Of a stretch of 64,000 bases of DNA, positions 10,325 through 58,575 are shown in pieces. The notes beneath the pieces were generated by a model, which saw only the letters and a list, made by a program, of their open reading frames with translations, made no database searches and was not told the DNA's origin. Made by a program: the position numbers and the translations under genes. Every line of letters starts with the position of its first letter. The first letter of the stretch is position 1. The stretch is from Pyrococcus sp. NA2 (GTDB taxonomy: Archaea; Methanobacteriota_B; Thermococci; Thermococcales; Thermococcaceae). The stretch lies in NCBI RefSeq assembly GCF_000211475.1, contig NC_015474.1, forward strand, positions 1,764,122 to 1,828,121, written 5' to 3'.

Positions 10325-11371
10325 TTGCTCTTCAATTTTCCTTTTTGCAACTTCTTCAGCAAGTGGTCTGAGGATTTCTATTATCTTTTCTCTAACTTTC
10401 TCGATGCCAATACCCTTTAGAGCGGAGACCTTTATTGGCTCAAGCCCTTTGTCTCTTAAGAAGTCTTCAACCTTCTTCACATTCTCTTCACTCGCAACAT
10501 CTATCTTGTTAATAACGGCCAAGAATGGTAACTCTCTGAACTCATCAAATATCTCGGAGAATAGGTGCATCTGCTCCTCTAGAGGGAAGCCACAGTACTC
10601 ACTTGGGTCGAAAATGTAAACTATCAAGTTCCCCAAGTGTTTTAATGCAAGTATTGCCTGCTTTTCTATTTCATTTCTTTCACTGAGCGGCCTATCCAAG
10701 AGACCAGGAGTATCTATGACCTGATATCTAAAGTATCCATCCTCAAATTGTCCAACATTTATTCCCCTAGTCGTGAAGGGATAACTTGCTATTTCTGGCT
10801 TAGCTGTCGTTAGTGCCTTTAACAATGTTGACTTCCCAACGTTAGGGTGACCCGCTATAACAACAGTCGGAATTTCAAGATCAACAACAGGCAGGTCCTT
10901 CAACACTTCCCTAGCCTTATTCAAATATCTCAACCTGTCATCTATATCTCTAAGTATGCTTGCTACTCTACCGTAGAACTGTCTCCTTAACTCGGCTATT
11001 TCTCCAGGATCATTGGAATATCTAATCCTCTCCACGTACCTCTCCTCCAACTCCCTAACCATTCTGATCGCCCAATCTATCCCAGCCATTGCCTTGTGGA
11101 ACGTATCCCTATCAACCAAAACATCAACTAGCTCCTGATAGAACTTTGGAAGTGTGGAAAGGCCAGGAGTTCTTTCAAGGATCTTCCTTAGATTGTCTCT
11201 TATTACATTGCTAACGGTTCTCACCCTCAACTCTTCCCTTTGTCTCGCCTTTTTCACCCTATCCCCCCTAGGTTTAAACGATGATGCCGCCTTCTCTGCT
11301 CTCCTAAATGCTTTATCTATCAATTCATCAGCGGTAAGTACCGTAGGCATTTTCTCGAATGGATTTTTCAT
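10301..11371 (-). CDS. NOG1-family GTPase (nucleolar GTP-binding protein 1 homologue)
   Basis: A 356-residue TRAFAC/OBG-HflX-like GTPase. A helical N-terminal NOG1 domain of about 165 residues precedes the G domain. G1 is AGHPNVGKST (about 173-182), the switch I region has YPFTTRGINVG, G3 is DTPGLLDR, G4 is NKID (about 285) and G5 is SALKG. By analogy with eukaryotic NOG1 it probably assists large ribosomal subunit assembly. The ATG at 11371 is preceded by a full GGAGGTGA with a 5-base spacer. It lies 12 bases downstream of the transglutaminase-like gene, probably in one operon. Confidence 0.85.
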   Translation of the reverse strand: MKNPFEKMPTVLTADELIDKAFRRAEKAASSFKPRGDRVKKARQREELRVRTVSNVIRDNLRKILERTPGLSTLPKFYQELVDVLVDRDTFHKAMAGIDWAIRMVRELEERYVERIRYSNDPGEIAELRRQFYGRVASILRDIDDRLRYLNKAREVLKDLPVVDLEIPTVVIAGHPNVGKSTLLKALTTAKPEIASYPFTTRGINVGQFEDGYFRYQVIDTPGLLDRPLSERNEIEKQAILALKHLGNLIVYIFDPSEYCGFPLEEQMHLFSEIFDEFRELPFLAVINKIDVASEENVKKVEDFLRDKGLEPIKVSALKGIGIEKVREKIIEILRPLAEEVAKRKIEEQLRRYRSF

Positions 11372-11383
11372 GATCTTCACCTC

Positions 11384-12403
11384 CTAAATTAACCACCACT
11401 CCCTCCTTTTAATCCAGAATACCCCAACTAATAGGAACAGCATGTAAGCAAATCTCCACCTGTCATCATGGAACCTCGCTTTATAAACCCTATCTAGGAT
11501 TATCTTCTTCCTTGTTATCCTGTATATTCTGATTTCCTGAATCTCCCACATCTTATCCAAATTATCCACATATTCACTAAATTTAGTTGGTCTAGAACCC
11601 CAGTCGAGTATCCAAAGGGTTCCATTAACATAGATAGCCGCCGCAGCATGACCACCACTTATATCCCCCTTGAACACGGTGTGAACTATATAGACAGGGG
11701 ATACATTGTTATACAACAACAGGTTGGCAACGAGCAATGCAAAATCACTACAAACACCTTTCTTATACATTATCGTCTCTATTGGAGTTTGAATATAGGT
11801 CACCCTTGTCTTTAGTCTACTGAAGTCATAACCCATCTTAGATATAATTCCCTGGGCTTCAATGGCTTTCCCCCAAATGTCGTTTGAATGTAATGTTATA
11901 TTTACGGTACCGTAACCATACTTAAGAACACACACCATCGCTCCTCTAAAGTCGTAAAGCCAAGCAACCCTATAGTTGCAGAGTTGTCTATAGAAATTGA
12001 TTTCCTCCCCAGAATGCACAACATAGTTGTCAAATTTGAAACTCCAGAGAGATGAAGTTAGGCTCGGGAGGATTATAAAAACGATGAGGAGCATCCCAAC
12101 AATTTTCCAGTCAATTAACTTGAAGAACTTTCCTTTTATTGGTCTTGCAAAGAACTTAACATCTGAATACACCATCCTTTCAAGTGCTTCGCCATATCTC
12201 CACAGGATGATAAGTGCCCTGTTTCTTCTTGTTCTCTCTATCTTTCTCAAACTAACATCCTCAACTATCCTCAAATACTCAAGAAACATTGCATCAAGTG
12301 ACTCAATGGAAGCAATTTCCCTAACCCTGTCAGCGATATCCGGTAGTACATCCTCCAATTCTTTAGCACATTGTAGGAGTATCCTTTTATGTTCACTTGA
12401 CAT
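11384..12403 (-). CDS. transglutaminase-like cysteine protease-fold membrane protein
   Basis: A protein of about 339 residues. A cytoplasmic helical N-terminal region is followed by a membrane segment (GMLLIVFIILPSLTSSLW), an extracellular transglutaminase-like domain and a second membrane segment near the C-terminus (YMLFLLVGVFWI). The catalytic triad is visible as Cys in KKGVCSDFALLVANLL, His in SGGHAAAAI and Asp in LWILDWG. It is probably a surface-exposed protease, peptide ligase or non-catalytic binding module. ATG 12403 sits about 25 bases downstream of AATAAATAG, suggesting a leaderless message; an upstream TTG at 12421 is less likely. Confidence 0.75.
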   Translation of the reverse strand: MSSEHKRILLQCAKELEDVLPDIADRVREIASIESLDAMFLEYLRIVEDVSLRKIERTRRNRALIILWRYGEALERMVYSDVKFFARPIKGKFFKLIDWKIVGMLLIVFIILPSLTSSLWSFKFDNYVVHSGEEINFYRQLCNYRVAWLYDFRGAMVCVLKYGYGTVNITLHSNDIWGKAIEAQGIISKMGYDFSRLKTRVTYIQTPIETIMYKKGVCSDFALLVANLLLYNNVSPVYIVHTVFKGDISGGHAAAAIYVNGTLWILDWGSRPTKFSEYVDNLDKMWEIQEIRIYRITRKKIILDRVYKARFHDDRWRFAYMLFLLVGVFWIKRREWWLI

Positions 12404-23390: not shown

Positions 23391-25454
23391 ATGAGAAAGG
23401 TCACCATCTCATTAATTCTTGCTATCATTCTAGTGGAGGCACTTGCCCCAATAACTTTTGGAGAAGAGAAGTATTCGGAACTAACTACCGTTGGGCTAAA
23501 ATTGGGCTGGAGCATAAAATTTGCTCAAAGATACGTAGTGAAGCTACAGGACGTTGACGAATCATGGAGCAAAGTCAAAATAAAAGTCTATGAAAATGGA
23601 AATCCAACTGCCACATACATATTAAGCGAAGGAGAGATGGGATACTACCCAGATAAATCAAATGTTATCCTCAGGATAAAGGTAACTGGAATCTGGAAAG
23701 ATAAAGAAACCGTCTATGTGAAGATTGGAACACCTCTGAAGTTAATTGAAGATAATCTCGTGCTAGAAAAGGGAGAATCGTATACAGTTCCGAGTCCATT
23801 CCTAAGATACAGGATTAAGGTCATCGAAATCCCATCGAACTCAGAAGCTAAGGTCGAAGTTACGTATCCTACTGGAAAAAAGGTAACAAGGATGATTAGC
23901 AAGACTTCTCCTCTCTCGATTCCTTACAAGATAAGTAATGATCTAACTCAATCCCCATACATCATGGTAGAACTTGTGAGTGCAAAAGAAGGAAAAGAAG
24001 TAGTATTAGACATTTATGGTGCAAAATTGACATTCCAAGGAGTCCAAATTCTAAAGTCGAGGGAAGAGTCTAAGCAGGAGACCCAAGAAGTAGGGGAAAT
24101 TTCACAAGAAATATACAGTGGACTGTTGTACGAGGGGGAAACATTAACCATAGAATATAACGACACCAGGTACGGAATAAGACTCTTATCAGTTGGTTAT
24201 TATTCAAGATTTGAAGTCCTAGATAAGAAGGGCCAAAGAATTGAATCATTCTCAGTGAGGGAAGGAAGCTCATACCAACTAAAAAAGATTCCCTTTAGAA
24301 TTGAGATACCACCAAACAGTATTGACCTGATCTATAATAGGACTTATATTAGAGTTTTTGGGCCGTTGGAAGCTTCAGCTATGCCAATAATTAGAGAAGC
24401 AAAGGTAGTTGCAGAGCTTTACGTTAATCAAAAGAAGGTACTCTTAAATGGAGATGAACTGATAGTTTTTATAAAGGTCAGGAACATTGGAAAAGGAAAC
24501 GCATTCCAAGTTAAAGTCCTCGCTCCTGTTCCAAATGATTTCGAACTGAGAAGTGGAATAGGAACATGGACCTTAAACACCTTAGAGGCATATTCAGAGA
24601 TGCCCGTTTTGGTCTATACCTTAAAGCCAAATAGGGTCGGAACTTATAATCTAGGTCCAGTCATTGTCGAATACTACAATGAAGCTGGCAAAAAGGTGAC
24701 TGTTAAATCAAATAGTATAGAGAAGATAGAAGTCTACGGTATCCCAGAGATTAAGTTAGAAGTTAAAGGGCTTAAAAAGGATGGAAGCTGGGGAAGTTAT
24801 ATAACGGGAGATGTTAATTCAACAATAAGGTTGAGATTTAGAGTTTCAGCTATTGGAGAGAATGAAAAATATGAGTTCATAAAAAACGCAAGTATAGTTG
24901 TCAACATTGGAGATTTCCTAGATGGTAAGGAAGTTTTACAGGTAGGAGATTTGAAAGCAGGAGATGAAAAGATCATTGAAAGTCAATACCTAATTCTAAG
25001 GGAAGGGATACATAGAGTTAGTGCCACGTTAGTTTACCAGGATCCCCTCGGAAATTGGCATAGGATTGATTATCCAAATGTTGTTATTATAAATAGCATT
25101 CCACCTAAGGTCATTGTGAAGAAAGAGGTTGTTGAAAAGTGGCCAGAGCCAAGTCAACTACCAGAGTACATAGATGTTGTCCTATCAAAACTTTCAAATC
25201 CTACCCCTCTAGCTGAAGAGATAAAGAACGTTTCACTAAAGTATATACCAAAGAGCACTGACTCGACAAAGATATTTCTCGGAACAATGTCTCTGATCCT
25301 TGGAGTTGGCCTTGTTGTCGCTGTCTACTATACAGCAAAATACAAGAACGAACTTGAAAGGTTGAAATTAAAGAAGAAAAAGCCAAGGCCTGGGGGATTA
25401 CCAAAGAAAGAGAGTTCAGAGGCAGAAAAAGAAGAGACTACCTCTACATCATAA
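23391..25454 (+). CDS. large membrane-anchored extracellular protein (S-layer/CARDB-like)
   Basis: A 687-residue exported protein. A signal peptide (MRKVTISLILAIILVEALAP) is followed by several beta-sandwich domains; the central part (about 350-460) has a CARDB/DUF11-like pattern (VFIKVRNIGKGNAFQVKV, LKPNRVGTYNLGPVIVEYY). A single membrane helix near the C-terminus (IFLGTMSLILGVGLVVAVYY) leads to a basic cytoplasmic tail. It heads the cluster of surface genes that includes cetZ and the pilins. A TATA-like CTTTATAG is at 23333-23340. The in-frame TTG upstream is rejected because only the ATG at 23391 gives a signal peptide. Confidence 0.75.
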   Translation: MRKVTISLILAIILVEALAPITFGEEKYSELTTVGLKLGWSIKFAQRYVVKLQDVDESWSKVKIKVYENGNPTATYILSEGEMGYYPDKSNVILRIKVTGIWKDKETVYVKIGTPLKLIEDNLVLEKGESYTVPSPFLRYRIKVIEIPSNSEAKVEVTYPTGKKVTRMISKTSPLSIPYKISNDLTQSPYIMVELVSAKEGKEVVLDIYGAKLTFQGVQILKSREESKQETQEVGEISQEIYSGLLYEGETLTIEYNDTRYGIRLLSVGYYSRFEVLDKKGQRIESFSVREGSSYQLKKIPFRIEIPPNSIDLIYNRTYIRVFGPLEASAMPIIREAKVVAELYVNQKKVLLNGDELIVFIKVRNIGKGNAFQVKVLAPVPNDFELRSGIGTWTLNTLEAYSEMPVLVYTLKPNRVGTYNLGPVIVEYYNEAGKKVTVKSNSIEKIEVYGIPEIKLEVKGLKKDGSWGSYITGDVNSTIRLRFRVSAIGENEKYEFIKNASIVVNIGDFLDGKEVLQVGDLKAGDEKIIESQYLILREGIHRVSATLVYQDPLGNWHRIDYPNVVIINSIPPKVIVKKEVVEKWPEPSQLPEYIDVVLSKLSNPTPLAEEIKNVSLKYIPKSTDSTKIFLGTMSLILGVGLVVAVYYTAKYKNELERLKLKKKKPRPGGLPKKESSEAEKEETTSTS

Positions 25455-25526
25455 CTTCTTTAAGCCAATTTTGTTTGCCAATAAATTTATTTATTTGGTT
25501 TATTAGATTTTGAAGGAGGGAAAGTA

Positions 25527-27596
25527 ATGAGAGTGTTCACCTACATGTTGATCCTATTGATAATAACAGCTACACCTGCCTCGGCAATTAACATGCTTGA
25601 TTATTCAGTCGACATGGTTAAGAAGATGGGGGAGCTATCAAAAACTAAGGATCTCAGTCTCATGATATTCGCACTATCACTAGCCTTCAACAGAAGCGAG
25701 AACTTAACAACAGAGGACGTTTGGAAGTTAGTTGATTTATTAATAGAACGTCAGAATAGCGATGGAGGTTGGGGTTATTTCTATGGGAGTATAAGTTCAG
25801 TTCCAGATACAAGCTTTGCATTAATTGGACTCAGTAAGGCCAAGGGAGTATTTTACAATGATATCAACAAGAGGGTAAAAATTGAAAAAGCAGTTAGAAG
25901 GGGTATCATATACCTAAAAGAAGCGTTCAATGGGGAGGGTTGGGGGTATCTTCCAGGGATGCCATCTGATTACAGAAGTACTTTACTAGCATCAGCAGCA
26001 CTATCGATGCTTGGGGAGGGCTTGAGTTATGTAAGTGAATCTTACAACGTAATCAGAGATGAGATTCCAGATGATCCTTTCATGGTATACCTTTGGATTC
26101 TCGTAACAAAAACCGTTACAGGCGAAATTCCAGAGAAGGCGATAGAGAAATTGAAGGAGATGAGGAAGGATGAAGGAGAATTAGCGGCTTCAACTTATGC
26201 CCTGCTGGAATTTGAAGGTCTGACATTCGATACAGCAATGTCACTATTAGAACTCGAAGAGTATAGGGAAACATGGAGTGATCCTTATTATCCCATTTAT
26301 ACAGCAATGGCATTTTCCCTTGTTTCAGAGAAAAGGATTAGGAGAGAAGAATTATCCGAAATATGTTCAATTTTATCCGAGCTTCAAAATGGAGATGGTG
26401 GATGGGGAGTGTATTCGGGAGTAAGCTCCAACGTCATGGTCACGTATTACGTCCTTAATTCATTCAAGAGATGCAATCCGAAAAGCGAGACTGTAAAGAA
26501 AGCTCTACACTTCATGAGGATTAGAATGCAAGAGATAGGAAATGAAGTGAAAATGGATAGACATCTAAGGAAGGAGTATCTCTACGCTCTGCTCTCTCTT
26601 ATAGAATACAATAATCTAACAAAATCAGAAAAAGAGGAAGCAATCTCCCTGATAATGTCCTCAACTTGGAAAGACAATTTAGGAAAGCAACCTGTCATAG
26701 TTGCGCTGGCAGTGAAAGCATTGCTAGAGTTGGGAATTCCAAGCAATTCCAGCATAATTGAGGAGAACTTGAAGTGGCTCGAGAAAATGAAAATCGAGGG
26801 GGGCTGGGGTTTCACATTCGAAACTCCATATGTTGAGTGGTACCTAGCCCCAACATACCCAGAAACAGTAGAAGTTTTCAACGCATTACTTCCCATACTG
26901 GGGAGAGATAGATTAAAGGATACAATAGAACTCATGAAGAAAGAAGCCCCCACAGTCGAGTGGGTAAAGTTGTATACGTATACGACATTGCTGAAACTTA
27001 GAGAGAAACCAAGCTGGGAAGTCGATATACCATCAAATTACAAAAGAAGTCCATTATTAGATGCAATGTTAATAAGGTATTACACCCTATCGCCAGAAGT
27101 CGCATGGACGAATATCCACACAGTATTCTCAGAATTTATGAACAGAAAGATTGAAATTAGAACGATGCATTCAAAGCTAGGTATTCTAATATCTAGAGGA
27201 CTCGCTGCAACTTTAAATTCAAACACAAAGCTTGAAGTTGTAAGATCGATAGTTGTGCCAGAAACAGGGTATTATGTAATAGTGGCACCAATAGGAGAAG
27301 TTGATCCATCAGTGTATAACAGGAGAATAACAATCCAAGCAGAAGCGGGGAAAGTGACAATAGATGGCATCCCCCTCAATGGAGAGGGTAACCTAGTCAT
27401 CATCCCAGGAGAAAACAGGGAGGGAGCATTACTGTTTGTCTTATATAATGGCAAGAATGTAGATAGGCTTGCGGAGATAATGTTTGATCCAAGGATACTT
27501 AGATACCTCCATGGAAAAGCAGTGATAGTGAGATGGTATGATAGAAATAATGATGGGGAAGTTGAGATGAAGGAAATAGACGTCAAGTTCCTATGA
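25527..27596 (+). CDS. secreted alpha/alpha-toroid protein with QxxDGGWG repeats
   Basis: A 689-residue protein with a signal peptide (MRVFTYMLILLIITATPASA). Residues 30 to about 500 form prenyltransferase/squalene-cyclase-type repeats: QNSDGGWGYF, NGEGWGYLPG, QNGDGGWGVY and EGGWGFTFE. These repeats build an alpha/alpha barrel also found in complement-like and polysaccharide-binding proteins. No cyclase DxDD motif is seen, so enzyme activity is doubtful. The last 150 residues are a distinct beta-rich domain ending with RNNDGEVEMKE, a possible calcium-binding loop. The start follows GGAGGG. A promoter-like AATAAATTTATTTA lies at 25480-25495. It is 12 bases upstream of cetZ, so co-expression is likely. 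Confidence 0.75.
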   Translation: MRVFTYMLILLIITATPASAINMLDYSVDMVKKMGELSKTKDLSLMIFALSLAFNRSENLTTEDVWKLVDLLIERQNSDGGWGYFYGSISSVPDTSFALIGLSKAKGVFYNDINKRVKIEKAVRRGIIYLKEAFNGEGWGYLPGMPSDYRSTLLASAALSMLGEGLSYVSESYNVIRDEIPDDPFMVYLWILVTKTVTGEIPEKAIEKLKEMRKDEGELAASTYALLEFEGLTFDTAMSLLELEEYRETWSDPYYPIYTAMAFSLVSEKRIRREELSEICSILSELQNGDGGWGVYSGVSSNVMVTYYVLNSFKRCNPKSETVKKALHFMRIRMQEIGNEVKMDRHLRKEYLYALLSLIEYNNLTKSEKEEAISLIMSSTWKDNLGKQPVIVALAVKALLELGIPSNSSIIEENLKWLEKMKIEGGWGFTFETPYVEWYLAPTYPETVEVFNALLPILGRDRLKDTIELMKKEAPTVEWVKLYTYTTLLKLREKPSWEVDIPSNYKRSPLLDAMLIRYYTLSPEVAWTNIHTVFSEFMNRKIEIRTMHSKLGILISRGLAATLNSNTKLEVVRSIVVPETGYYVIVAPIGEVDPSVYNRRITIQAEAGKVTIDGIPLNGEGNLVIIPGENREGALLFVLYNGKNVDRLAEIMFDPRILRYLHGKAVIVRWYDRNNDGEVEMKEIDVKFL

Positions 27597-27608
27597 GGTG
27601 AACAGGGT

Positions 27609-28706
27609 GTGAGAGCGATAATAATAGGAATAGGCCAATGCGGAACAAAAATCGCCGATATATTCTCCCTTGTAGATTTTGAAGCACTCGCGATAAACAC
27701 TTCAAGGAGTGACCTAGAATACCTAAAACATATACCGCAGGAAAGGAGGATTTTAATAGGGGAAAGTATAGTAGGAGGAAAGGGTGTAAATGCAAACCCT
27801 GTACTCGGAAGGGAAGCTATGAAAAGGGATCTGCCAATGGTGATGAGGAAAATAAATTCACTTGTTGGTTACGAAGATGTCGACATCTTCTTTCTAACTT
27901 TTGGGTTTGGAGGAGGTACTGGAGCTGGAGGAACCCCAGTATTAGCGGAGGCCCTTAAGGAGGAATATCCCGATTCATTGGTTGTTGCAATTGGAGCACT
28001 CCCATTAAAAGAGGAAGGTATAAGACCGACGATTAATGCAGCAATAACTATAGACAAACTTTCAAAGGTCGTAGACTCGATAATAGCGATAGATAACAAC
28101 AAGCTCAAGGAAAGTGAAGAGGACATAAGCCAGGCTTATGAAAGGATCAACTATGCGATTGTCGAGAGAATTGCCTCGCTCCTAGCATTAATTGACGTCC
28201 CTGGAGAACAGACATTAGATGCAAGCGATCTTAAGTTCGTTCTAAGGGCCATGGGGAGCTTTGCAACCGTTGGTTACGCGAAGGCAGATGCAACAAAATT
28301 GAAAAGCCTTTCAAGATTGATAATTAGGTCGTTTGAAAACGAAGGACTTTATCTCGATATCAACCTAGAGTCAGCTTTATATGGCCTAGTGGCAATCCAT
28401 GGGCCTCCAGAGGTTCTAAAGGCAAAGGATATCTTCGATGCTCTGAACGAACTCTCTCAAAGAATAAGAGGAAAGCAGATATTTAGAGGCTTCTATCCTG
28501 ATCCCAGGGAGAGGGAAGTGGAAGTTGTAACGTTACTTAGTGGAATCTATGAGAGCAAGAGCATAGAGGACATAGTTGTAACAGCAAAGAGATATGCAAG
28601 GGAGTTCATTAAAGCTAAGGAAGAGGGAGAAGTCAAAAAGAGGGAACTACTTAAAGGACTACCTGACTTCGATGACATATACCCAGGTGAGGTTGATGAG
28701 AGTTAA
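27609..28706 (+). CDS. cetZ: CetZ-family tubulin/FtsZ-like GTPase
   Basis: A 365-residue tubulin-superfamily protein. It has the N-terminal GIGQCGTKI loop, the T4 signature FGFGGGTGAGGTP (about 98-110), and the sequence SDLEYLKHIPQERRILIG that is typical of CetZ rather than FtsZ. CetZ proteins polymerise with GTP; in haloarchaea they control cell shape and motility, not division. The GTG start follows GAGGTGA at 27595-27601. It lies 12 bases after the secreted toroid protein and overlaps the next membrane-protein gene by 11 bases. The neighbourhood of exported and pilin-like proteins suggests the polymer organises or positions a surface structure; that is inference. Confidence 0.9.
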   Translation: MRAIIIGIGQCGTKIADIFSLVDFEALAINTSRSDLEYLKHIPQERRILIGESIVGGKGVNANPVLGREAMKRDLPMVMRKINSLVGYEDVDIFFLTFGFGGGTGAGGTPVLAEALKEEYPDSLVVAIGALPLKEEGIRPTINAAITIDKLSKVVDSIIAIDNNKLKESEEDISQAYERINYAIVERIASLLALIDVPGEQTLDASDLKFVLRAMGSFATVGYAKADATKLKSLSRLIIRSFENEGLYLDINLESALYGLVAIHGPPEVLKAKDIFDALNELSQRIRGKQIFRGFYPDPREREVEVVTLLSGIYESKSIEDIVVTAKRYAREFIKAKEEGEVKKRELLKGLPDFDDIYPGEVDES

Positions 28707-29289
28707 AGATTCCGTTGAGGTTGCACTGGAGCTTAATGAGAAGGAGTTGTATTCTCACATAGCTCATGAGAGTGCCGAGGATATGATAAGGATAATATCC
28801 TCGATTGACGCCGAAAGGGCAAAATTGAGAGGGGAGATCGTTTATCATCAAGACGATTGGGATCTACTCATAAGAGAGAGAATCAGAAAAGGAAAGAGGC
28901 ATACTGCCTTTGACTTCTATAATCCAATCCTGCTTGAGATATGGGAAGGAAAGGTAAAAGCGGCAAAGAGGTCAATTGGAATGTTCAAGTATTTCGTTGG
29001 AATGATAGTAGGAATCTTTGCCCTAACAATATTCTTAACTTTCAAGCTTGGATACCCAGTAATAATACTGGGACTAGGAATCTTGCCCCTTCTAATATTT
29101 GCAAGTGATTATTCCAAGGCAAGGGCAGATTTGTTTTATTATGAGCTTGTTCAACTATTCATATATGAACTCAAGGAGATAATTAAAAAGTTCGAGCTCA
29201 AAAAAGATGAGTATCCATTAAAGCTGTATAGCAGAGACTACAATGAAATAGAATTCAGGAAGAGTGGAAAAGTCTTCATAAAAATTTAA
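28696..29289 (+). CDS. membrane protein with cytoplasmic domains, possible CetZ partner
   Basis: I do not recognise a family. The product is 197 residues: a charged helical N-terminal part of about 95 residues, two adjacent membrane helices (YFVGMIVGIFALTIFLTF and VIILGLGILPLLIFA), and a C-terminal cytoplasmic stretch of about 65 residues. ATG 28696 follows GGTGAGG and overlaps the end of cetZ by 11 bases, indicating translational coupling. Such coupling makes it the natural candidate for anchoring CetZ to the membrane, but no direct evidence is visible. Confidence 0.65.
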   Translation: MRVKDSVEVALELNEKELYSHIAHESAEDMIRIISSIDAERAKLRGEIVYHQDDWDLLIRERIRKGKRHTAFDFYNPILLEIWEGKVKAAKRSIGMFKYFVGMIVGIFALTIFLTFKLGYPVIILGLGILPLLIFASDYSKARADLFYYELVQLFIYELKEIIKKFELKKDEYPLKLYSRDYNEIEFRKSGKVFIKI

Positions 29290-29325
29290 ATATAATTAGG
29301 TAATAAAATTGTATAGTGAGAAAAA

Positions 29326-29928
29326 ATGAGGAAAGGGCAAGTCTCTGTAGAGTTCCTCTTCATAATTACGATATTCATGATAATGTTACTATATTCTATC
29401 AACAATGTAACTTTTAATAGAGGCCCCTCGGTTGACCTTTTAGCAACTCAGATAAACATCGAGGAGAAGGCACTCGCAAACGCTATCTCAAATACCATAA
29501 GCCAAGTCTACGCCCAAGGACCAGGGGCCAAGGCGACAACCTACATCTCACTAACTTACCTCAGGGATGAGACCTACATTAAGAGGGCTTTTAAATTTGA
29601 AAATCCCATAATCATAATATTTTACAGGAATGGAACCTATGTCGCATTAATTGACGAGGATAATGCGACTCTAAAGACCAGGGGTTCAAATAAAAACACC
29701 TTCTGGAGCTATTCTCTCTATGCAAGAGATCTATTAACCAATTACACAGTCTTCAGAAATAACAACCTCCTAGTTAATTTGGATGGAGTATCAATGCAAA
29801 TTGCCTGTCTTAGATTGAGACCATCAGAGATACCCAAAAGGTTGAAAATAGTAGTCGAGTGGAATCCAGATCTAGAGGATTCGTGGATTTATAGTTCAGG
29901 TGAACTAAAAATAGTAATAGGTGATTAA
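29326..29928 (+). CDS. type IV pilin-like protein 1 (class III signal peptide)
   Basis: A 200-residue exported protein. The N-terminus MRKGQVSVEFLFIITIF is a class III (pilin-like) signal: a short basic leader, the KGQxSxEF processing motif and a hydrophobic helix. An archaeal prepilin peptidase of the EppA/PibD kind would cleave before the glutamine; no such peptidase gene is in the window. The mature part is a beta-rich globular domain with sequons. It is the first of six consecutive pilin-like genes and has its own TATA-like TTTAAATATAATT at 29284-29296 with a very short leader. Confidence 0.75.
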   Translation: MRKGQVSVEFLFIITIFMIMLLYSINNVTFNRGPSVDLLATQINIEEKALANAISNTISQVYAQGPGAKATTYISLTYLRDETYIKRAFKFENPIIIIFYRNGTYVALIDEDNATLKTRGSNKNTFWSYSLYARDLLTNYTVFRNNNLLVNLDGVSMQIACLRLRPSEIPKRLKIVVEWNPDLEDSWIYSSGELKIVIGD

Positions 29929-29929
29929 T

Positions 29930-30343
29930 TTGAAGGGTCAGATTTCCATTGATTTCTTGATAGCCCTAACACTCGTGATGATTACTGCATTGAACTTAGT
30001 GAGTCTTGGTCTTTCACAAACTGAAGACATAAAATCCTTCGACATCTCAGCTAGACTCAAAGTCTTTGCAATAGATGTTAGGGACACGATAACTAAGGTA
30101 TACAGTGTCGGAGAGGGATTTGCAGTTAAAAAGAGTTGGCCTTTTAAACTTGAACCAAATGAAAGGATAATATTATCTCTAAAATCCCCAGGGATCGTGA
30201 ATATAACATTGATCTCAGGAGAGAAGAGCTATACAATTCTCGAAAAAACACAGGTCCCAATAACTGAAAATAGTACTGTTGTATTAACCAGAGACAACAA
30301 AAGTTTTTGGATAAAGTTTGAAGGGGGAATAAAAATTGAGTAA
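29930..30343 (+). CDS. type IV pilin-like protein 2 (class III signal peptide)
   Basis: A protein of about 137 residues whose N-terminus (MKGQISIDFLIALTLVMI) is a class III pilin signal with KGQ at the processing site. The TTG at 29930 is preferred because GGTGA is correctly spaced and it starts directly at MKGQ; a GTG at 29921 would add three residues. It begins one base after the stop of pilin 1. The mature domain is short and beta-rich, ending in FWIKFEGGIKIE. It is probably a minor pilin or major subunit; sequence alone does not decide. Confidence 0.75.
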   Translation: MKGQISIDFLIALTLVMITALNLVSLGLSQTEDIKSFDISARLKVFAIDVRDTITKVYSVGEGFAVKKSWPFKLEPNERIILSLKSPGIVNITLISGEKSYTILEKTQVPITENSTVVLTRDNKSFWIKFEGGIKIE

Positions 30344-30761
30344 AAGAGGACAAACATCAATGGAAGAGCTGTTTATATTGGTTATCATCGTAGCAGGTAT
30401 TCTCCTTTTAATACCTAATTATATTAATGATAATTCTAAAACAATTGCAATAATTCATGTGAGAGATGTCGCCCAAGAAGCTTGTGATTACTTGAATCTT
30501 GGAGTCAGATTAAGTGAACCCAAGTACGAACCCCTCAATAATTTGCTTAATGGTTCAACAAAGTGCTTTCTAAACGGGATTTCACTTGAAGAGACCAAAA
30601 ATGAGATTAATATTACGGTCTATATAACTGGGAGAGGGAACATGACAAGAGGAATCAGAGATTTTATAATAAACTCGCTCAAGGAAAGGGGCTTTTCAAT
30701 CAAGAATGGGACTTTGGTATATAATAAAATAACAATAAACGTGGAGGTTGTTGAAGGATGA
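30336..30761 (+). CDS. type IV pilin-like protein 3 (class III signal peptide)
   Basis: A 141-residue protein with the class III signal MSKRGQTSMEELFILVII, in which RGQxSxEE matches the consensus processing motif. The start is TTG at 30336, following GGGGGAATA with suitable spacing, and it overlaps the end of pilin 2 by 8 bases. The mature part contains a cysteine pair (ACDYLNLG, KCFLNG) that could form a disulfide outside the cell, then a mixed alpha/beta region. It is tightly coupled with its neighbours. Confidence 0.75.
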   Translation: MSKRGQTSMEELFILVIIVAGILLLIPNYINDNSKTIAIIHVRDVAQEACDYLNLGVRLSEPKYEPLNNLLNGSTKCFLNGISLEETKNEINITVYITGRGNMTRGIRDFIINSLKERGFSIKNGTLVYNKITINVEVVEG

Positions 30762-32188
30762 AGAAAGGTCAATTACTATCTCTTGACGCCCTGCTTTCCT
30801 TGATAATAGTCACATTCATGATCGCATCAATAATTAACGTTTCTTCAGAAATAAAAGGTGAGATAGTGTCAATAGTAGAATGGTTCGGAAGGAGTAATAT
30901 AGCTGAAAACATGATCGATGTCCTGGTAGAATCTCCTGGGGAACCCGAAAATTGGGAAGATGACATTAATTCAATTAGGATAGTTGGACTTGGAAATACG
31001 TTTGGAGAAATTGATTATGAAAAACTTAAGAAATTTATTGAGAACATAAATAACCCCAAAATTTTAAGTTCACTATACAACTTAAGCCTTGGCAGGAACT
31101 TCCTAATGGAAGTATATCTTTCTTCTCTCCAAGTTAATGTGAGTGGTAAATTCCCAGAGGTGTATGTGGATGGCATGACTTTCTCAAATCCAAGTGGAAA
31201 CCCTCCTGGGGTGAACTTTCGAATATCAAGCCAAGGAAACAAGGCCTTCAGAGTAACGTACTTAGAGCTCATTAGGGACGGTATAAAGTATGTAAATAGA
31301 GATGTATTAGACCTTACAAGAGGTTCAACTTTAAATCTTATGGAGGGGGATAAAATAAGATTCATAATCGCCGAAGATGTAACTCTAACAGTTAGGAGAG
31401 CTAGCGGGGGAGGTACAATTTTTGAAAGAGATATTCCTGCAGAAGCTTTCATTGAGATAACAGTAAGGGGACCAGAAGTGAGTAACTTCAAGATAACCTT
31501 TCAAGGTGGAAACTGGGATACCTTTAAGTTTACAGGCATTGGAAACGTCATAGTCACAGTTACAGCGTATTCCACTTCGCATCCAACTATCATAGTCAAC
31601 AAAACATTCTACACAGATTTATTGAGAATGAGAAGACCAACTAAATTCTTTGCCTTAATAAATGGCACTCTAATAACGAATGAAACAATAATTTTAACAT
31701 CCATGAATAGATCTGAATGGATAGAGCCCGCATATCGGATAGTAATTATAAAAAGAATAGAATACGATTTATCTAAGGAACCCTCCAAAACCGATCCTCT
31801 GGTATATGGAACTCTTCCAAAATATCACTCTTTGAGGGGACTTTTAAAGATATCAGTTCCTGGAACAGAAGGTAATCTTACTTTGGTCACGATCTCAGGT
31901 TCAGATATAAAGGGGATATTTGTTTACAAAGAAACCTCCAACGATATTGTTAAAGCTGTGATCATAGATAAAAATGCTACTTATATACTTAAGGGAAACA
32001 CAACTTCGGTGTCGATACCCTTAAATAAGATATTTGAGAATAAGTATAATAATGAGATAGTGGGAATGTGGCTATATTCATGTACATGGAACAGAGAGAG
32101 AGTCAAATTGGAGATAAGCCCCTCAATGAGATGGACTTTAAAGCCAGTTAAGGATCTTGCAATGATAAGGTTAGTTGTGTGGGGATGA
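30758..32188 (+). CDS. large pilin-like surface protein 4
   Basis: A 476-residue protein with an N-terminal pilin-like helix (MKKGQLLSLDALLSLIIVTF). KGQ is retained, but the usual SxE is changed to LSLD. The ectodomain is long and predicted to be beta-rich, with many sequons (NVSGK, NGTL, NETI, NATY). Its ATG overlaps the stop of pilin 3 by 4 bases (ATGA). The length is far above that of ordinary archaeal pilins and fits a tip adhesin or a pseudopilin carrying a large head. Confidence 0.7.
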   Translation: MKKGQLLSLDALLSLIIVTFMIASIINVSSEIKGEIVSIVEWFGRSNIAENMIDVLVESPGEPENWEDDINSIRIVGLGNTFGEIDYEKLKKFIENINNPKILSSLYNLSLGRNFLMEVYLSSLQVNVSGKFPEVYVDGMTFSNPSGNPPGVNFRISSQGNKAFRVTYLELIRDGIKYVNRDVLDLTRGSTLNLMEGDKIRFIIAEDVTLTVRRASGGGTIFERDIPAEAFIEITVRGPEVSNFKITFQGGNWDTFKFTGIGNVIVTVTAYSTSHPTIIVNKTFYTDLLRMRRPTKFFALINGTLITNETIILTSMNRSEWIEPAYRIVIIKRIEYDLSKEPSKTDPLVYGTLPKYHSLRGLLKISVPGTEGNLTLVTISGSDIKGIFVYKETSNDIVKAVIIDKNATYILKGNTTSVSIPLNKIFENKYNNEIVGMWLYSCTWNRERVKLEISPSMRWTLKPVKDLAMIRLVVWG

Positions 32189-32191
32189 CTC

Positions 32192-34264
32192 ATGAGAAAA
32201 GCGTTCATATTTACACTCGATGCATTACTATCACTAATCTTAGTTGTGGTTATTTTAACCTCCATAATATCCACCGAGAGCAGAAACTCTCCAATTTACC
32301 TGACATCATTAAGGACACAATCCAAATTAGTTGCCGAGGATACACTACTCATGCTAAGGACGGTACCTCTAAACGAAATAGTTCCGCCAGAAAAGATAAA
32401 AGAGTGGAGTGACAAGGGGATACTTGACCCAGAACTTGTGGATCCCAGTATGAGCCCTTTAGATATAGTCACAACGTATTGGGCAACTCAGGACCTATAT
32501 CCCCAAAAGAATCTTAGACATAAGGCCGAGATTATTCTGGGGTATGTGCTTAACAAGACGCTACCTGATTATTATTATGAATTGATTATAAATAACTACA
32601 CAAGTCCATACCTTAGAAAGATTGGTGGAAATTATTCTAAAGCATTAGAAGTATCTCCCGCTACTTTGATAATGAGTGGCTATGCACATAATAAGACTCC
32701 AAGGGGATATGTGGCAAGGGCGTATCTCACAAGAGTTACCACTATAAGGGAGGAACTATACGGATGGATGAGAGTGTTAGCTGGAGCATATTCGTATTAT
32801 GACGATTATAATAGGATTTCTATCACAAGGGAGATAGAACTTCCTCCTGACGCTATAATATTAGCTTCGGATGGCAAATTTGTCGCAAGAGAAGATGAAA
32901 AAATAACCTTATATATTAATGGGAACCGAGTTACAAGTGATTTCGACAAAATTAATGTCGGTGATTTAACATCTTATTTGAAGCCTGGGAATAATGTGAT
33001 AAAATTAGTGTTTTCAGCTACTGGGAGTCAGAGTGAAATAGGATCCGCAAGCGGAACTACAATGTATGTGAAATATAAAAGTCAATATCTGGGGGTCGAA
33101 GATCCTGGAAAGATAAAGATATACAATGTGACATCAGAGGAAACGGGAATCATGTATCTTCTAGAGCTCTTTGTTCCAGGAGATATAACTTCAATTTACA
33201 TGAGGTTTAAAGTGCAGGGTGTAAATACTGTTAGACTTTATTATGGTCTTGGAAGGAGATTAACATTGTTACTCACTAAAACTCCAGAAAATGGGATTGT
33301 CGAATTTACCGATGACGAGATAAGAGACGCAGTAAACAGGAAAATCTGCGGAGGAAGGAATTGCTATGATGAATTTAAGAAAAACCTCAGTAAGATGGTC
33401 TTTGACTTCGTAATTGGTTTTGATGCCAAGTATAATTCTGAGAAAGGAGAGTGGAAGTATGATGGAAGAGATAACGATAGAGTTGGGAAGCGGGTCATCT
33501 ACGGATATCCAGATTCCGTTGTCATAATAAGATACAAGCCAAAAATTGTGATAACTAGGTACAGTATCCCAATTTCGATATACTTCCCCTATGGGGATCC
33601 AAGGGTTAGTTATCCTAGAAGAGGCCTTAGAGTAGAGTACTACCTACCCCCAGTTGCGGAACCCTGGTACGCTGACTTCTGGGTAGGATATACTTTTTTT
33701 ATAAACTCCGAAACAACGACCCAGAACCTTTATGAGAACGGAAAATTGTTCTATTCAGGACCCTTAGGGAGATATGCAATTAGAGTAGCCTACACGAAAT
33801 TATACGAATGGATGATGGTTCCAGGAAAAAGTAATATCTTTGAGATAAAGATGAGAGGAGGGGACTCATACGTAAGAGATGGAGAAACAAGAGGAGTAAT
33901 AAAATATTTCATACAAGGATACGCTGGATATGGAGACATATTTCCCAAGTTGATAAGGGAAGGGTGTAGAGGATATAATATCACTTATTATTGGGTGGGC
34001 GATACTTCTCCACAGCACGTCTTAGCGGGAGAAGAACCCTACTGTAGTGTAACGGCTGATGAGTTACTCGTGGGTAGGAAGATTTATGCCGTTGATGATG
34101 CAATAATAAGGCTCTTCAACAATTTGGGTGGAAATGGAACAAGAACAAGCCCCCTCCTGGTGAAACTGCCTTCCAACGTCATGATAGACTTCGCTTCTAT
34201 GGGTAATATCCCAGGACTTTTTGAGCCCATAAGGATAACACTGAGGGTATGGAGGGAGAAGTAA
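32192..34264 (+). CDS. large pilin-like surface protein 5
   Basis: A 690-residue protein with an N-terminal pilin-like membrane helix (MRKAFIFTLDALLSLILVVV). The LDALLSL segment matches the preceding gene, so the two are paralogous at the N-terminus, but the canonical KGQ has become KAF, so peptidase processing is uncertain. The ectodomain contains cysteines (KICGGRNC, GCRGYN, YCSVTA), sequons and a C-terminal region rich in beta strands. It starts 3 bases after pilin-like protein 4. A role as a structural or tip component is inferred. Confidence 0.7.
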   Translation: MRKAFIFTLDALLSLILVVVILTSIISTESRNSPIYLTSLRTQSKLVAEDTLLMLRTVPLNEIVPPEKIKEWSDKGILDPELVDPSMSPLDIVTTYWATQDLYPQKNLRHKAEIILGYVLNKTLPDYYYELIINNYTSPYLRKIGGNYSKALEVSPATLIMSGYAHNKTPRGYVARAYLTRVTTIREELYGWMRVLAGAYSYYDDYNRISITREIELPPDAIILASDGKFVAREDEKITLYINGNRVTSDFDKINVGDLTSYLKPGNNVIKLVFSATGSQSEIGSASGTTMYVKYKSQYLGVEDPGKIKIYNVTSEETGIMYLLELFVPGDITSIYMRFKVQGVNTVRLYYGLGRRLTLLLTKTPENGIVEFTDDEIRDAVNRKICGGRNCYDEFKKNLSKMVFDFVIGFDAKYNSEKGEWKYDGRDNDRVGKRVIYGYPDSVVIIRYKPKIVITRYSIPISIYFPYGDPRVSYPRRGLRVEYYLPPVAEPWYADFWVGYTFFINSETTTQNLYENGKLFYSGPLGRYAIRVAYTKLYEWMMVPGKSNIFEIKMRGGDSYVRDGETRGVIKYFIQGYAGYGDIFPKLIREGCRGYNITYYWVGDTSPQHVLAGEEPYCSVTADELLVGRKIYAVDDAIIRLFNNLGGNGTRTSPLLVKLPSNVMIDFASMGNIPGLFEPIRITLRVWREK

Positions 34265-36615
34265 TGAAAAGAGGATTTCTGTTAAATTCCACAGTCATAA
34301 TTCTACTGATTCCATTAATTTTACTCGTAGCTACTTACGAAGATGTTTCATCATTTATAATTAAAAGTCAGGGAGAGAGAATACATATTAGGACTACTAA
34401 AGATGTAGTAGTCTTTCTAAACTTGGACTTTGAGAGAACTCTAGAGATCTCTGCAAAAAGAGCAATAGTAACTGTTGTTGATTATGTTTCTCTAACTGGG
34501 AACTTCATAGATCCTTCTTACAAGGTCAACAACACAATTGCAGATTTAATAAAAACTGGGAGATCCCCCTCAATCGCTGGATATAACCCAGACAGGATAA
34601 TGAAAGGACAAACAATTGGAAGTTGGCTTTCCAATGTAAGCTCCCTATTGAAGAGACAGGGGTATGAACTCCTTCCCGATATCAATACAATTTTAAGGAA
34701 CACTGAAATAAAAGTCGCTCCCTTAGATGCGTTTAGAGTTGTAGTAAAGGGTCGCATTCTGAATATAACAATTAGGGACAAGAGCGGGAAAATCGTTTAT
34801 TCCGGTCCAATACCTAGGGACAATGGATATATATATTCAATAGTTGATATTACAGAACTCGAAGATCCTTTATTCTCAGCAATGACGGGAGGAAGATATC
34901 ATAGATCGATTAGAGCCTGCAAATACAGTTACCCAAGCCTCGGGATGATTCCACTTACGGTAGCAAATGGTAGTGGAAGAGGCAGCAATGTTGTGATAGG
35001 CAAGTTTGGAATCGATCTACAGTACAACCTAACTCATATCTGGGATTCAATTGGAAATTACATAACGAACTTAACGATAAATGGGATAGAGGCAACGACT
35101 GATATGATAATAATGAATAGTAGTGACATGGGGGTTATAGTGTTTAACGGGAGCATTGGTACAACGGGATGGTGCTCCAACTATAAATACAGGATTAATG
35201 TCACAATTAGGAACAATTTAAACAAGAAGCTAGTAGACTTTCAAGTTCCAATATCCATTTCTATATCCTCGAAAGATATGCCTCTCACACCAAAGATAAA
35301 GGTTTACAATTCGGATTGTGTACAAATTCCATTCTGGGTGGAAAAGTGGATAAAGCAGGGAAATATGCTTAATGCCGTCATTTGGGTTAAGCTTAACTTA
35401 GTTCCAGGAGATAATATTATAAGCATATATTTTGATCCAGAAGCTCCAGAAAATTGGGGTAATCCTCAAGAAGTTTTCGAGTTCTATGATGACTTTGAAA
35501 CATGGGAAGACTGGAGTACCTATAAAAAAGGGAAAGTCACCCAATCTTCAGATGTTTCTTATTACGGACACTATAGTCTTAAGAAATATTCCAAGAACGA
35601 TCCGAATGGTGGATACAAGCTGATTGGTAAAGAGCTGGGGAGGGACATAATATTAGAGGGGTATGTTTATAGACCAAGAAACTGGGGAGGAGGATCTGCG
35701 GATAGAATAGGAATTGAAGATGATAACTTTAATGGATATTCAATCTTTGTTAGCCATACTAGGAATGTTATAAGAATTGATAAGAGAACAAATGGAAATC
35801 CCAGTAGCATTTTTGGATCCCAGGGACATTGGAATCCTCCTGAAGATGATTGGTACTTCTTTAGATTGATAATAGCTGATGATGCTATTATTTTGGAAAT
35901 CTACGATAAAGACAGCTCTTATAAGTATACTATCGGCGTCGGATATCTAATAAGGGTAAGGGCTTTAGATAACACATATTCTAGATTTGATAGGGTGGTC
36001 ATCCATGGTGGATATGTATATTATGTTGACTCTATAAGGATAAGGAAATATGCCACTCAAATGCCTACGGTATTCGTTTCCTCTAAAATTGAAACAATAC
36101 CTCAACTTTCTCAACCAACAATACCAGGAAGAGTTTATGATATTCAACCCCTCATTGCCTGTCTTCTCGACAATCGTTACTTTGCTATAAGAAATGGATG
36201 GTCATTCTTCGAACGACTAGAAGGGAGCAACAGAAACCATATAATCTACGAAAAATTAGCTAATGAAACCCAGGATGAACTAGGAATAACTTACAACGGG
36301 AGGCACTATCCAATAGGGTTGGTAAGTTTCATGATACCTCACGGTGCTTATGACAACAAGCTCCTTAATGTAATGGATATGTTAGGTATTTCCATCGAAG
36401 AAGGGGAGAGTAGCACCGATTATTACTTCCTACAATATTATTTCGGCAATGGAGTAAAAGTTGAAGGATATAGAGTATGGGGCATCTCCTATGGAGATTC
36501 TTCTTCTACAGGAAATCTTGAAAATATCCCATTCTTTATAGACCCAGAGACTGCAAAAGAGATATTTGGAATTCAAGGGGCCTGTGATTTATTATATGGG
36601 TATAATTGTTCATAA
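34264..36615 (+). CDS. large pilin-like surface protein 6 with DUF2341/concanavalin-like domain
   Basis: A 783-residue protein. A short basic start and a hydrophobic helix (MKRGFLLNSTVIILLIPLIL) give a pilin-like or uncleaved anchor. The middle (about 310-400) matches DUF2341, with WCSNYKYRINVTI, FQVPISISISSKD, VQIPFWVEKWIK and AVIWVKLNLVPGDN. A concanavalin/LamG-like domain follows (about 405-600). Such domains bind carbohydrate or protein ligands, so this is the best adhesin candidate in the cluster. ATG 34264 follows GGAGGG and overlaps the previous TAA by one base. It is the last gene of the cluster. Confidence 0.75.
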   Translation: MKRGFLLNSTVIILLIPLILLVATYEDVSSFIIKSQGERIHIRTTKDVVVFLNLDFERTLEISAKRAIVTVVDYVSLTGNFIDPSYKVNNTIADLIKTGRSPSIAGYNPDRIMKGQTIGSWLSNVSSLLKRQGYELLPDINTILRNTEIKVAPLDAFRVVVKGRILNITIRDKSGKIVYSGPIPRDNGYIYSIVDITELEDPLFSAMTGGRYHRSIRACKYSYPSLGMIPLTVANGSGRGSNVVIGKFGIDLQYNLTHIWDSIGNYITNLTINGIEATTDMIIMNSSDMGVIVFNGSIGTTGWCSNYKYRINVTIRNNLNKKLVDFQVPISISISSKDMPLTPKIKVYNSDCVQIPFWVEKWIKQGNMLNAVIWVKLNLVPGDNIISIYFDPEAPENWGNPQEVFEFYDDFETWEDWSTYKKGKVTQSSDVSYYGHYSLKKYSKNDPNGGYKLIGKELGRDIILEGYVYRPRNWGGGSADRIGIEDDNFNGYSIFVSHTRNVIRIDKRTNGNPSSIFGSQGHWNPPEDDWYFFRLIIADDAIILEIYDKDSSYKYTIGVGYLIRVRALDNTYSRFDRVVIHGGYVYYVDSIRIRKYATQMPTVFVSSKIETIPQLSQPTIPGRVYDIQPLIACLLDNRYFAIRNGWSFFERLEGSNRNHIIYEKLANETQDELGITYNGRHYPIGLVSFMIPHGAYDNKLLNVMDMLGISIEEGESSTDYYFLQYYFGNGVKVEGYRVWGISYGDSSSTGNLENIPFFIDPETAKEIFGIQGACDLLYGYNCS

Positions 36616-40613: not shown

Positions 40614-42599
40614 CTAGTGTTTTAACTTGGAGATTCTTGCGGCAGAGAATTTCAGCTCTGGAGTTCCGGCCTTATTGAGGGCATCATTTGTCAACAAGTT
40701 GGCATCGAAGTGGAATGGAACAACTATAACTCCCTCCCTAACCTTAGCTATCTTAGCCCTTAGAACTATTGAGCCCCTTCTCGTTTCAACTTTGACTGGG
40801 TCCCCATCCTTTATTCCATATTTTCTTGCATCTTCCTCACTTATGTAAACCACCGGCTCATCCATTAGCTTAACCAGCGAGGGGCTCCTCATGGTCATTT
40901 CACCCGTGTTATAGTGACTTATCACCCTAACAGTTGTCAAAATAAGCGGATAATCACCATTTGGTTGTTCCCAGGGAGTTATCTGCTCCACAGCAATCAA
41001 TCTGGCCTTTCCATCAGGGGTTTGGAACCTTATCGTGTGAAGCCTCTTGTAAGGAATTATTATTCCCTCTGAATTTTTAAGATCCTCAGCTCTCATTCCA
41101 GAAAGTTCGGGAAATAGTCTAAAATATTCCTCCGTTATCTCTTCAACCGAGGTGTAGTTAAATCCTGGAAGGTTGAGAGATCTACCGAGCATCGTCAGTA
41201 TCTCCCAATCTGGCCTTGCTTCGCCAGGAGGGTCACAGACCTTTTCGCTCCACTGAATCCTCCTCTCACTGTTCATGTAGCTCCCCTCTTTTTCACAGAA
41301 GGCCGCAGCGGGTAAAACATAGTGAGCAAACCTTGCAGTTCTCGTCAGAAATATGTCCTGAACAACGAGTAGCTCGAGCTTTTGAAGGGCTTTTCTAACC
41401 TTGAGGACATTCGCCTCACTAACGGCTGGATTCTCGCCAACTATGTATAGGGCCTTCAAATCACCACTCAATATTGCATCCCAAAGCTCAGTCAAGTAAA
41501 GTCCCCTCTCGGTTGGGAGATCATCTACACCCCAGAGTTCAGCAACTCTCCTTCTAAAGCTCGAATCACTCAACGGAACATAGCCCGGTAGGAACTCACT
41601 TAGGGCTCCCATGTACGCCGCTCCTTGGACATTGTTCTGACCTCTCATTGGGTAAAGGCCACCTCTCTCCCCTATGTATCCGAGGAGCAGGGCTATATCT
41701 ATCAATGCTATGACGTTTTCAACGCCTGAGACGTGCTGAGTCAATCCCATCCCCCACATTATTGCACCGCTTCCAGCTTTGGCGAACTCCCTTGCAACTT
41801 TCCTTATTAACTCGGCATCAATTCCAGTGACCTTCTCAGCGTACTCCGGAGTGTACTTCCTGACGGCCATTCTAATCTCAGAGAACCCCGTTGTTCTCGT
41901 CCTAACGAAGTCCCTGTTGTAAAGTCCTTCGGATATTATAACGTTCATCATTGCGTTTGCAAGTGTTATGTCCGTTCCTGGTCTTGTAATCAACTTGTAA
42001 TCCGCGAGATTCATCGTCCTTGTTTCCCTAACGTCGATGACGATTATCTTAGCTCCTTTTCTCTTGGCCTTAACTATGTAATCCATGACAACTGGATGGG
42101 TCTCCGCTGGATTGTATCCCCAGATCATTATCGCGTTGAAATTCTCAAGATCAGAGTAAGGGTTCGTCTGAACACCGGCTCCAACCGTCATTTTGAGGGC
42201 ATGAACACTTGCCTCATGGCACAATCTCGCACAGTTATCTATATTATTGGTTCCGAAGAGGCGAGCGATCTTTTGAAGCAGGTAGTTTTCTTCATTTGAA
42301 ACCTTCGAGGATGCTATGAACGCGACGGCATCGGGCCCGTATTCATCTCTTATCCTAAGCAACTCCCTGGATATCTCACCAATCGCCTCCCTCCAGGATA
42401 TCTTAACGAAGTCATCCCCAACCCTCTTCAAAGGAACCGTCAATCTATCCTTGGAGAAGACGAACTCCAAGGCATGCAAACCTTTAGGGCACAGCTTACC
42501 TCTGTTGGGCTCTCCTTTGTAAGGTCTCACCCTAAGGGTCTTGGGATCTATGAGTAGGTTACATCCAAAACCACAGTAGGGACAAACAACCCTTTTCAC
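40614..42599 (-). CDS. formate dehydrogenase alpha subunit-like Mo/W-bis-pterin oxidoreductase
   Basis: A 661-residue member of the DMSO reductase superfamily. The N-terminal [4Fe-4S] cysteines are C6, C9, C13 (CPYCGFGC) and C37 (KLCPKG). The metal-ligand position of formate dehydrogenases is occupied by cysteine (C127 in NCARLCHEASV), not selenocysteine. GYNPAETHPV and the C-terminal SHYNTGEMTMRS blocks bind the pterins. In Pyrococcus the metal is probably tungsten. GTG 42599 follows GGTGG; an ATG 66 bases upstream would add an unrelated N-terminal extension. No electron-transfer subunit is adjacent. It lies between pdxT and purP on the same strand. Confidence 0.85.
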   Translation of the reverse strand: MKRVVCPYCGFGCNLLIDPKTLRVRPYKGEPNRGKLCPKGLHALEFVFSKDRLTVPLKRVGDDFVKISWREAIGEISRELLRIRDEYGPDAVAFIASSKVSNEENYLLQKIARLFGTNNIDNCARLCHEASVHALKMTVGAGVQTNPYSDLENFNAIMIWGYNPAETHPVVMDYIVKAKRKGAKIIVIDVRETRTMNLADYKLITRPGTDITLANAMMNVIISEGLYNRDFVRTRTTGFSEIRMAVRKYTPEYAEKVTGIDAELIRKVAREFAKAGSGAIMWGMGLTQHVSGVENVIALIDIALLLGYIGERGGLYPMRGQNNVQGAAYMGALSEFLPGYVPLSDSSFRRRVAELWGVDDLPTERGLYLTELWDAILSGDLKALYIVGENPAVSEANVLKVRKALQKLELLVVQDIFLTRTARFAHYVLPAAAFCEKEGSYMNSERRIQWSEKVCDPPGEARPDWEILTMLGRSLNLPGFNYTSVEEITEEYFRLFPELSGMRAEDLKNSEGIIIPYKRLHTIRFQTPDGKARLIAVEQITPWEQPNGDYPLILTTVRVISHYNTGEMTMRSPSLVKLMDEPVVYISEEDARKYGIKDGDPVKVETRRGSIVLRAKIAKVREGVIVVPFHFDANLLTNDALNKAGTPELKFSAARISKLKH

Positions 42600-42671
42600 C
42601 CTACCACCAATAAACATGAAGATGTCAAAAATATAAAGATTTTTGGACAGAATTGACCAGTTCATGTAAAA

Positions 42672-51042: not shown

Positions 51043-51056
51043 CAAAAGCACCTGCC

Positions 51057-58304: not shown

Positions 58305-58308
58305 GATA

Positions 58309-58575
58309 TCACCTCCCAACCTTATACCTTACAACGTATCTCCCCCTTTCAAAATCCTCCTCGCTTTCCACGATTTCAACAGGTTTTATCTTCAATCCAA
58401 AGTCCATGGCCTCCCAGGAGATGTCCTCGAAGTAATCGTATAATCCACATGTCTTGCAGAAGCTACCTTCAAATTCTATTATAACCTCATCTTCTTTTAC
58501 CTCCAATATCTTTGCCTGAGCCTCACTTCCATGTAGCCTATTGAATTCTTTAATTACATAATTAAGTTTTTCCAT
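58309..58575 (-). CDS. small CxxC protein, possibly NifU-C/FSCA-like, next to the oxidoreductase
   Basis: An 88-residue protein with the layout of a NifU C-terminal or FSCA-like domain: a first helix, then VKEDEVIIEFEGSFCKTCGLY, with a CKTC motif, and a second beta segment (KIKPVEIVE). Such domains donate or carry iron-sulfur clusters. The gene is 4 bases upstream of the oxidoreductase, and its ATG lies 2 bases after the stop of the preceding gene, so the three form an operon. It may assist cluster or cofactor insertion; this is inference. Confidence 0.55.
   Translation of the reverse strand: MEKLNYVIKEFNRLHGSEAQAKILEVKEDEVIIEFEGSFCKTCGLYDYFEDISWEAMDFGLKIKPVEIVESEEDFERGRYVVRYKVGR

Follow-up and report, generated by a model that had tools for sequence, protein, structure and literature searches.

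A conserved CetZ–membrane protein gene pair within a pilin-like gene cluster of Pyrococcus sp. NA2 and other Thermococcales

The window analysed here, a stretch of 64,000 nucleotides from Pyrococcus sp. NA2 (NCBI RefSeq assembly GCF_000211475.1, contig NC_015474.1, positions 1,764,122 to 1,828,121 of the forward strand), contains a cluster of ten plus-strand reading frames at 23391-36615, here called A to J, in which the gene for a CetZ tubulin homologue (C) is followed by a membrane protein gene (D) and by six genes for pilin-like proteins (E to J). An open reading frame (ORF) check of the window recovered all ten frames at the positions given in a first-pass annotation of this DNA. Its description of consecutive genes with overlaps or short gaps, leading from a surface protein through a toroid protein, CetZ and a membrane protein to six pilin-like products, was borne out by the frames, Pfam matches and signal motifs. 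The features, in window coordinates, are as follows.

23391..25454, plus strand: A, exported surface protein with signal peptide, BatD/DUF11-like domain (weak match, below cut-off), C-terminal membrane anchor and basic tail
25480..25494, plus strand: predicted B recognition element/TATA box (BRE/TATA) of the B-C-D unit (z 9.8, 19 loci)
25527..27596, plus strand: B, secreted alpha/alpha toroid protein with squalene-cyclase-like fold (Pfam Prenyltrans, 1.3e-7)
27609..28706, plus strand: C, CetZ tubulin-superfamily GTPase with conserved C-terminal tail LLxGLPDFDDxY (Pfam, alignment)
28696..29289, plus strand: D, membrane protein in which residues 5-91 form a conserved cytosolic N-domain, followed by two membrane helices and a C-terminal domain; its start codon lies inside the end of cetZ
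29281..29294, plus strand: predicted BRE/TATA element of the E-J unit (z 5.0, 20 loci)
29326..29928, plus strand: E, minor pilin-like protein, class III signal KG|QVSVE (Pfam, motif, predicted model)
29921..30343, plus strand: F, pilin-like protein, class III signal KG|QISID (motif; order conserved)
30336..30761, plus strand: G, pilin-like protein, class III signal RG|QTSME (motif; order conserved)
30758..32188, plus strand: H, large pilin-like protein, class III signal KG|QLLSLD (motif; order conserved)
32192..34264, plus strand: I, large pilin-like protein, atypical class III signal KA|FIFTLD (motif, relatives)
34249..36615, plus strand: J, large DUF2341 protein, atypical class III signal RG|FLLN, probable tip adhesin (Pfam, motif; PilY-like proposal, PMC4858521)

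Neighbouring genes are separated by 72 (A-B), 12 (B-C), 36 (D-E) and 3 nucleotides (H-I), or overlap by 11 (C-D), 8 (E-F and F-G), 4 (G-H) and 16 nucleotides (I-J).

The product of gene C matches the Pfam families Tubulin (PF00091, 1.2e-30) and CetZ_C (PF21011, 1e-15), both above the curated cut-offs, and the FtsZ equivalog model scores it far under its own cut-off. Its best PDB matches are 4b46, 4b45 and 3zid, entries titled FtsZ or tubulin/FtsZ, which we take to be the CetZ1/CetZ2 structures of Haloferax and a CetZ structure of Methanosaeta. The sequences GGGTGAG and LDxSD are invariant across 20 CetZ proteins, the latter by comparison presumably being the T7 loop with its catalytic acidic residues. 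At the C-terminus the tail motif LLxGLPDFDDxY is present in all 30 loci compared; mean pairwise identity is 86% in this tail, 69% in the preceding linker and 42% in the end that follows. In some CetZ proteins of genus g3 (loci L051, L052 and L054) the C-terminus is longer by 20-25 residues; the extension, as in SFPDFNEVTKGLRRREDD, includes a second PDF-like piece, has a basic end and is possibly a duplicated docking motif.

The surroundings of cetZ were compared in 19 relatives from six genera, using 19 kb around the gene in each. The order C-D-E-F-G-H-I-J is identical in 19 of 19, with two blemishes: G was undetected in one locus, and I is split or interrupted in another. In the latter (L043, from the same-genus genome G011) the match to I is split and a gap of 476 bp follows H (~11168-11645), for which a long insertion or the choice of start codon is possible. 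Conservation of gene order across the Thermococcales, which the first-pass annotation had named as a check, is therefore found in these relatives, and in none of them does cetZ lie apart from the pilin genes. The overlap behind the coupling of cetZ to D claimed there is likewise conserved, at 4-26 bp in all 19; among the later pairs, G-H and H-I overlap mostly by 4 bp. Upstream of cetZ, the toroid gene B was found in 18 of the 19 relatives, and A was seen in seven same-genus loci only, being absent from 13 other loci even when a profile search was included. One locus (L050, genome G019) keeps cetZ, D and all the pilin genes and has no recognisable B in the fetched 6.5 kb upstream of cetZ; the archaellum ATPase was undetected in that genome.

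Of 94 genomes in the family, 89 have both CetZ and D and the other five, all fragmented drafts, have neither; the two genes are adjacent wherever coordinates were compared. CetZ_C was not found in 21 other genomes of the phylum. Two weak, distant matches to D, with E 3e-4 and 1e-3, came from two further families of the phylum; they cover only the membrane and C-terminal part and were taken as chance. Because both proteins are near-universal in the family, what makes their pairing informative is chiefly the conserved overlap of the genes and the way the pair stops at the family boundary. Within D, the N-terminal cytosolic domain holds most of the invariant residues and has a mean pairwise identity of 81%, compared with 51% for the C-terminus and 32% for the membrane part. 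Helices make up most of the predicted model of D, two long ones containing the membrane segments, and a search of the sequence profile of D against the PDB gave zero matches. FtsZ binds its membrane anchors via a short conserved C-terminal peptide, and by analogy we propose that the CetZ tail may dock on the cytosolic N-domain of D.

Pilin-like character was assessed for E to J with a FlaFind-type class III motif combined with a hydrophobic stretch. All six proteins contain both, and only E passes the Pfam cut-off for a class III signal. Among the relatives the motif matched in E (19/19), F (15/19), G (17/18), H (19/19), I (18/19) and J (18/19); in the window it matched one further frame among 50 ORFs of at least 150 amino acids. 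The signals of E to H are canonical, with Q in position +1 and an acidic residue beyond it, and those of I and J are atypical (KAFIFTLD and RGFLLN). The predicted model of E has a long N-terminal helix and a beta head, an architecture like that of pilins. DUF2341, a domain of proteins that have been modelled as tip adhesins and likened to PilY (Makarova et al., 2016; PMC4858521), is matched by J at 8.7e-12 and occurs also in three relatives from other genomes.

As the first-pass annotation had observed, the cluster holds no pilus ATPase or platform gene: neither T2SSE nor T2SSF was found among the ten genes, and the nearest T2SSE-like match in the window is sub-threshold and ~20 kb upstream of the cluster. 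Two clear secretion ATPases are encoded outside the window. One, which adjoins an archaellum FlaH-like gene, we take to be the archaellum ATPase. The other is a KlbA-type pilus ATPase with an intein inside, encoded at ~1.169 Mb, ~620 kb from cetZ, in a motor locus (~1166.7-1173.5 kb) of genes for a DUF515 membrane protein, a surface protein, the T2SSE ATPase and two TadC-like proteins (two T2SSF). A prepilin peptidase (Arc_PepC/Peptidase_A24) and tandem class III proteins of ~63 amino acids are also encoded elsewhere in the genome. The motor that the annotation had placed elsewhere, together with the TadA/TadC-like genes, is thus present; its alternative suggestion, a system unlike standard archaeal type IV pili, is not supported, since the genome encodes the ATPase, two platform proteins, the peptidase and small stand-alone pilins. 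An unfamiliar motor was ruled out by the same locus. With that locus in the genome, and with the pilus loci of Methanococcus maripaludis likewise scattered, a cluster without its own motor is to be expected and is not the sign of an unusual system. We infer that the pilus belongs to clade 1, because Makarova et al. (2016) list the thermococci there and the second strong T2SSE protein of the genome is the putative archaellum ATPase.

The KlbA-type ATPase was found in 93 of 94 genomes, including all 74 of good quality, and in the closed genomes compared it is never near cetZ, the nearest noted case being ~30 kb away. In its gene in the present genome (L037:8525-11011; G000:C1 ~1169024-1171510) the intein lies in frame between GHDG and CMGTIHS, has a splicing domain (7.6e-23) and begins with Ala, not Cys or Ser. 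Many ATPase frames in relatives are 1,100-1,200 amino acids long, suggesting larger inteins, and others are ~620 amino acids long, suggesting none.

The make-up of the cluster could also fit a short pseudopilus for secretion or DNA uptake, positioned by CetZ, instead of a long surface pilus. Most of its pilins are large and atypical, a small major pilin is absent from E to J, and H, I and J (476-788 amino acids) would suit a stubby structure. We nevertheless regard a pseudopilus as improbable: the class III pilins of ~63 amino acids elsewhere in the genome match known archaeal major pilins in size class, and M. maripaludis builds visible pili from the same scattered layout (PMC3875500).

A service of CetZ to the archaellum, with the pilus cluster incidental, was also considered, and PMC11621097 implicates Haloferax CetZ1 in archaellum assembly and positioning. 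Among the 74 good genomes, the archaellum ATPase (FlaI) was undetected in 12; KlbA is retained in all 12, and cetZ and D in 11. Six of the 12, each a single contig, retain cetZ, D, KlbA and the gene for pilin I. Retention of cetZ in genomes without detected FlaI indicates that CetZ in this family does not depend on the archaellum. The idea that CetZ follows the archaellum was rejected on this ground, and an archaellar role at this locus is largely refuted and very improbable. No good-quality genome was established that has cetZ without the pilus genes, or the reverse, so a dependence of CetZ on the pilus is conjectural.

The putative transcription signals divide the cluster. A crude BRE/TATA score of our own, set against shuffled upstream sequence, stands out upstream of B and E; it is not raised upstream of C, D, F, G, H, I or J, and upstream of A it reaches z 1.5 from seven loci only. 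This pattern points to A, B-C-D and E-J as three units, between which read-through is possible. The promoter-like elements upstream of B and E make a single operon of ten genes unlikely; probably B-C-D and E-J are transcribed separately, so that their expression ratio can vary. Such a division would suit a general cytoskeleton of cell shape or envelope formed by CetZ and D, next to which the pilin genes have been kept by history or shared regulation: a conserved promoter-like element separate from that of E-J precedes B-C-D, identity among relatives is far higher for CetZ (80-95%) than for the pilins (25-77%), and Haloferax CetZ1 affects shape and motility (PMC9856176). The arrangement persists across six genera despite differing flanking genes, however, and two orders of haloarchaea have cetZ2 independently placed next to another pilus locus (PMC9856176); we consider the general cytoskeleton unlikely, while giving it appreciable weight.

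On balance, we lean towards reading the cluster as the part of the Thermococcales clade 1 type IV pilus system that supplies the minor pilins, a tip adhesin and the cytoskeletal component, with CetZ and D placing pilus assembly. In such a system, the prepilin peptidase would cleave E to J, KlbA and the TadC proteins would assemble the small stand-alone pilins on a minor-pilin base of E to I, and J would sit at the pilus tip. With less certainty, CetZ might polymerise under the membrane, D might tether it there by binding of its cytosolic N-domain to the conserved tail, and the pair might mark or stabilise the site at which the pilus machine is built. A more far-reaching proposal, that CetZ in the Thermococcales is a dedicated pilus-placing filament held at the membrane by the family-specific anchor D through its own short conserved tail, much as FtsZ is by its tail, and serving a surface appendage instead of division, is tentative and rather doubtful.

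Several observations weigh against the preferred reading. A shared gene neighbourhood can also reflect shared regulation, and the separate predicted promoters weaken the tie between CetZ and the pilins. The near-universal presence of CetZ, D and KlbA in the family means that co-occurrence alone says little. Neither predicted model was matched in the PDB, that of E having no significant match and that of D no fold match at E < 0.001, and the partner of the conserved CetZ tail could be a protein other than D. Binding between CetZ and D, and any effect of CetZ on pili, are hypothetical throughout the Thermococcales, and our literature searches found no experimental work on CetZ in this order.

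The link to a surface appendage drawn in the first-pass annotation agrees with the consistent embedding of CetZ among pilins, while its novelty does not stand, the CetZ-pilin association having been published in 2016 (PMC4858521) and 2023 (PMC9856176). Newly added here are the gene order in 19 relatives, the overlap and co-occurrence of CetZ and D, the retention in genomes without a detected archaellum ATPase, the predicted promoters, and the CetZ tail together with the D domain. The value beyond the published association is thus a candidate partner, D, and its interface with the CetZ tail. Thermococcales have one CetZ only, locked to its neighbour D and to the pilus module in hosts that are genetically tractable, so a role of a tubulin homologue in type IV pilus assembly becomes testable.

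Two further sets of genes were seen in the window, all on the minus strand. Paralogous membrane proteins with nearly identical C-terminal halves are encoded at 48724-49278 and 50512-51051, and two molybdopterin oxidoreductase-like (formate dehydrogenase-like) genes, named from sequence appearance, lie at 40614-42665 and 56376-58319.

Among known systems, haloarchaeal cetZ2 beside pilB2/C2 is similar in that a CetZ adjoins type IV pilus genes; it differs in belonging to another CetZ subfamily, in having the ATPase and platform genes in the same locus, and in the pilus clade concerned (4F; Makarova et al., 2016). The EppA-dependent pili of M. maripaludis (PMC3875500) share the division into a minor-pilin operon, a second locus with the ATPase and two membrane proteins, and a third for a major pilin of ~74 amino acids, whereas CetZ is not described there. 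Brown and Duggin (2023; PMC9856176) found every Thermococcales cetZ region they analysed to be pilin-associated and suggested that CetZ may scaffold type IV systems. Their regions resemble the present one in combining CetZ with five or six predicted pilins and, as a rule, two envelope proteins, although D, the CetZ tail motif of this group, promoters and archaellum-less genomes are not discussed in their main text. Makarova et al. (2016; PMC4858521), crediting Szabo (2007), reported that most Thermococci have an FtsZ-family gene (arCOG02202) and a squalene cyclase in their clade 1 loci, and the clade 1 pilus matches the present system further in its several minor pilins and DUF2341 proteins, its ATPase with two TadC proteins, and its stand-alone small major pilins.

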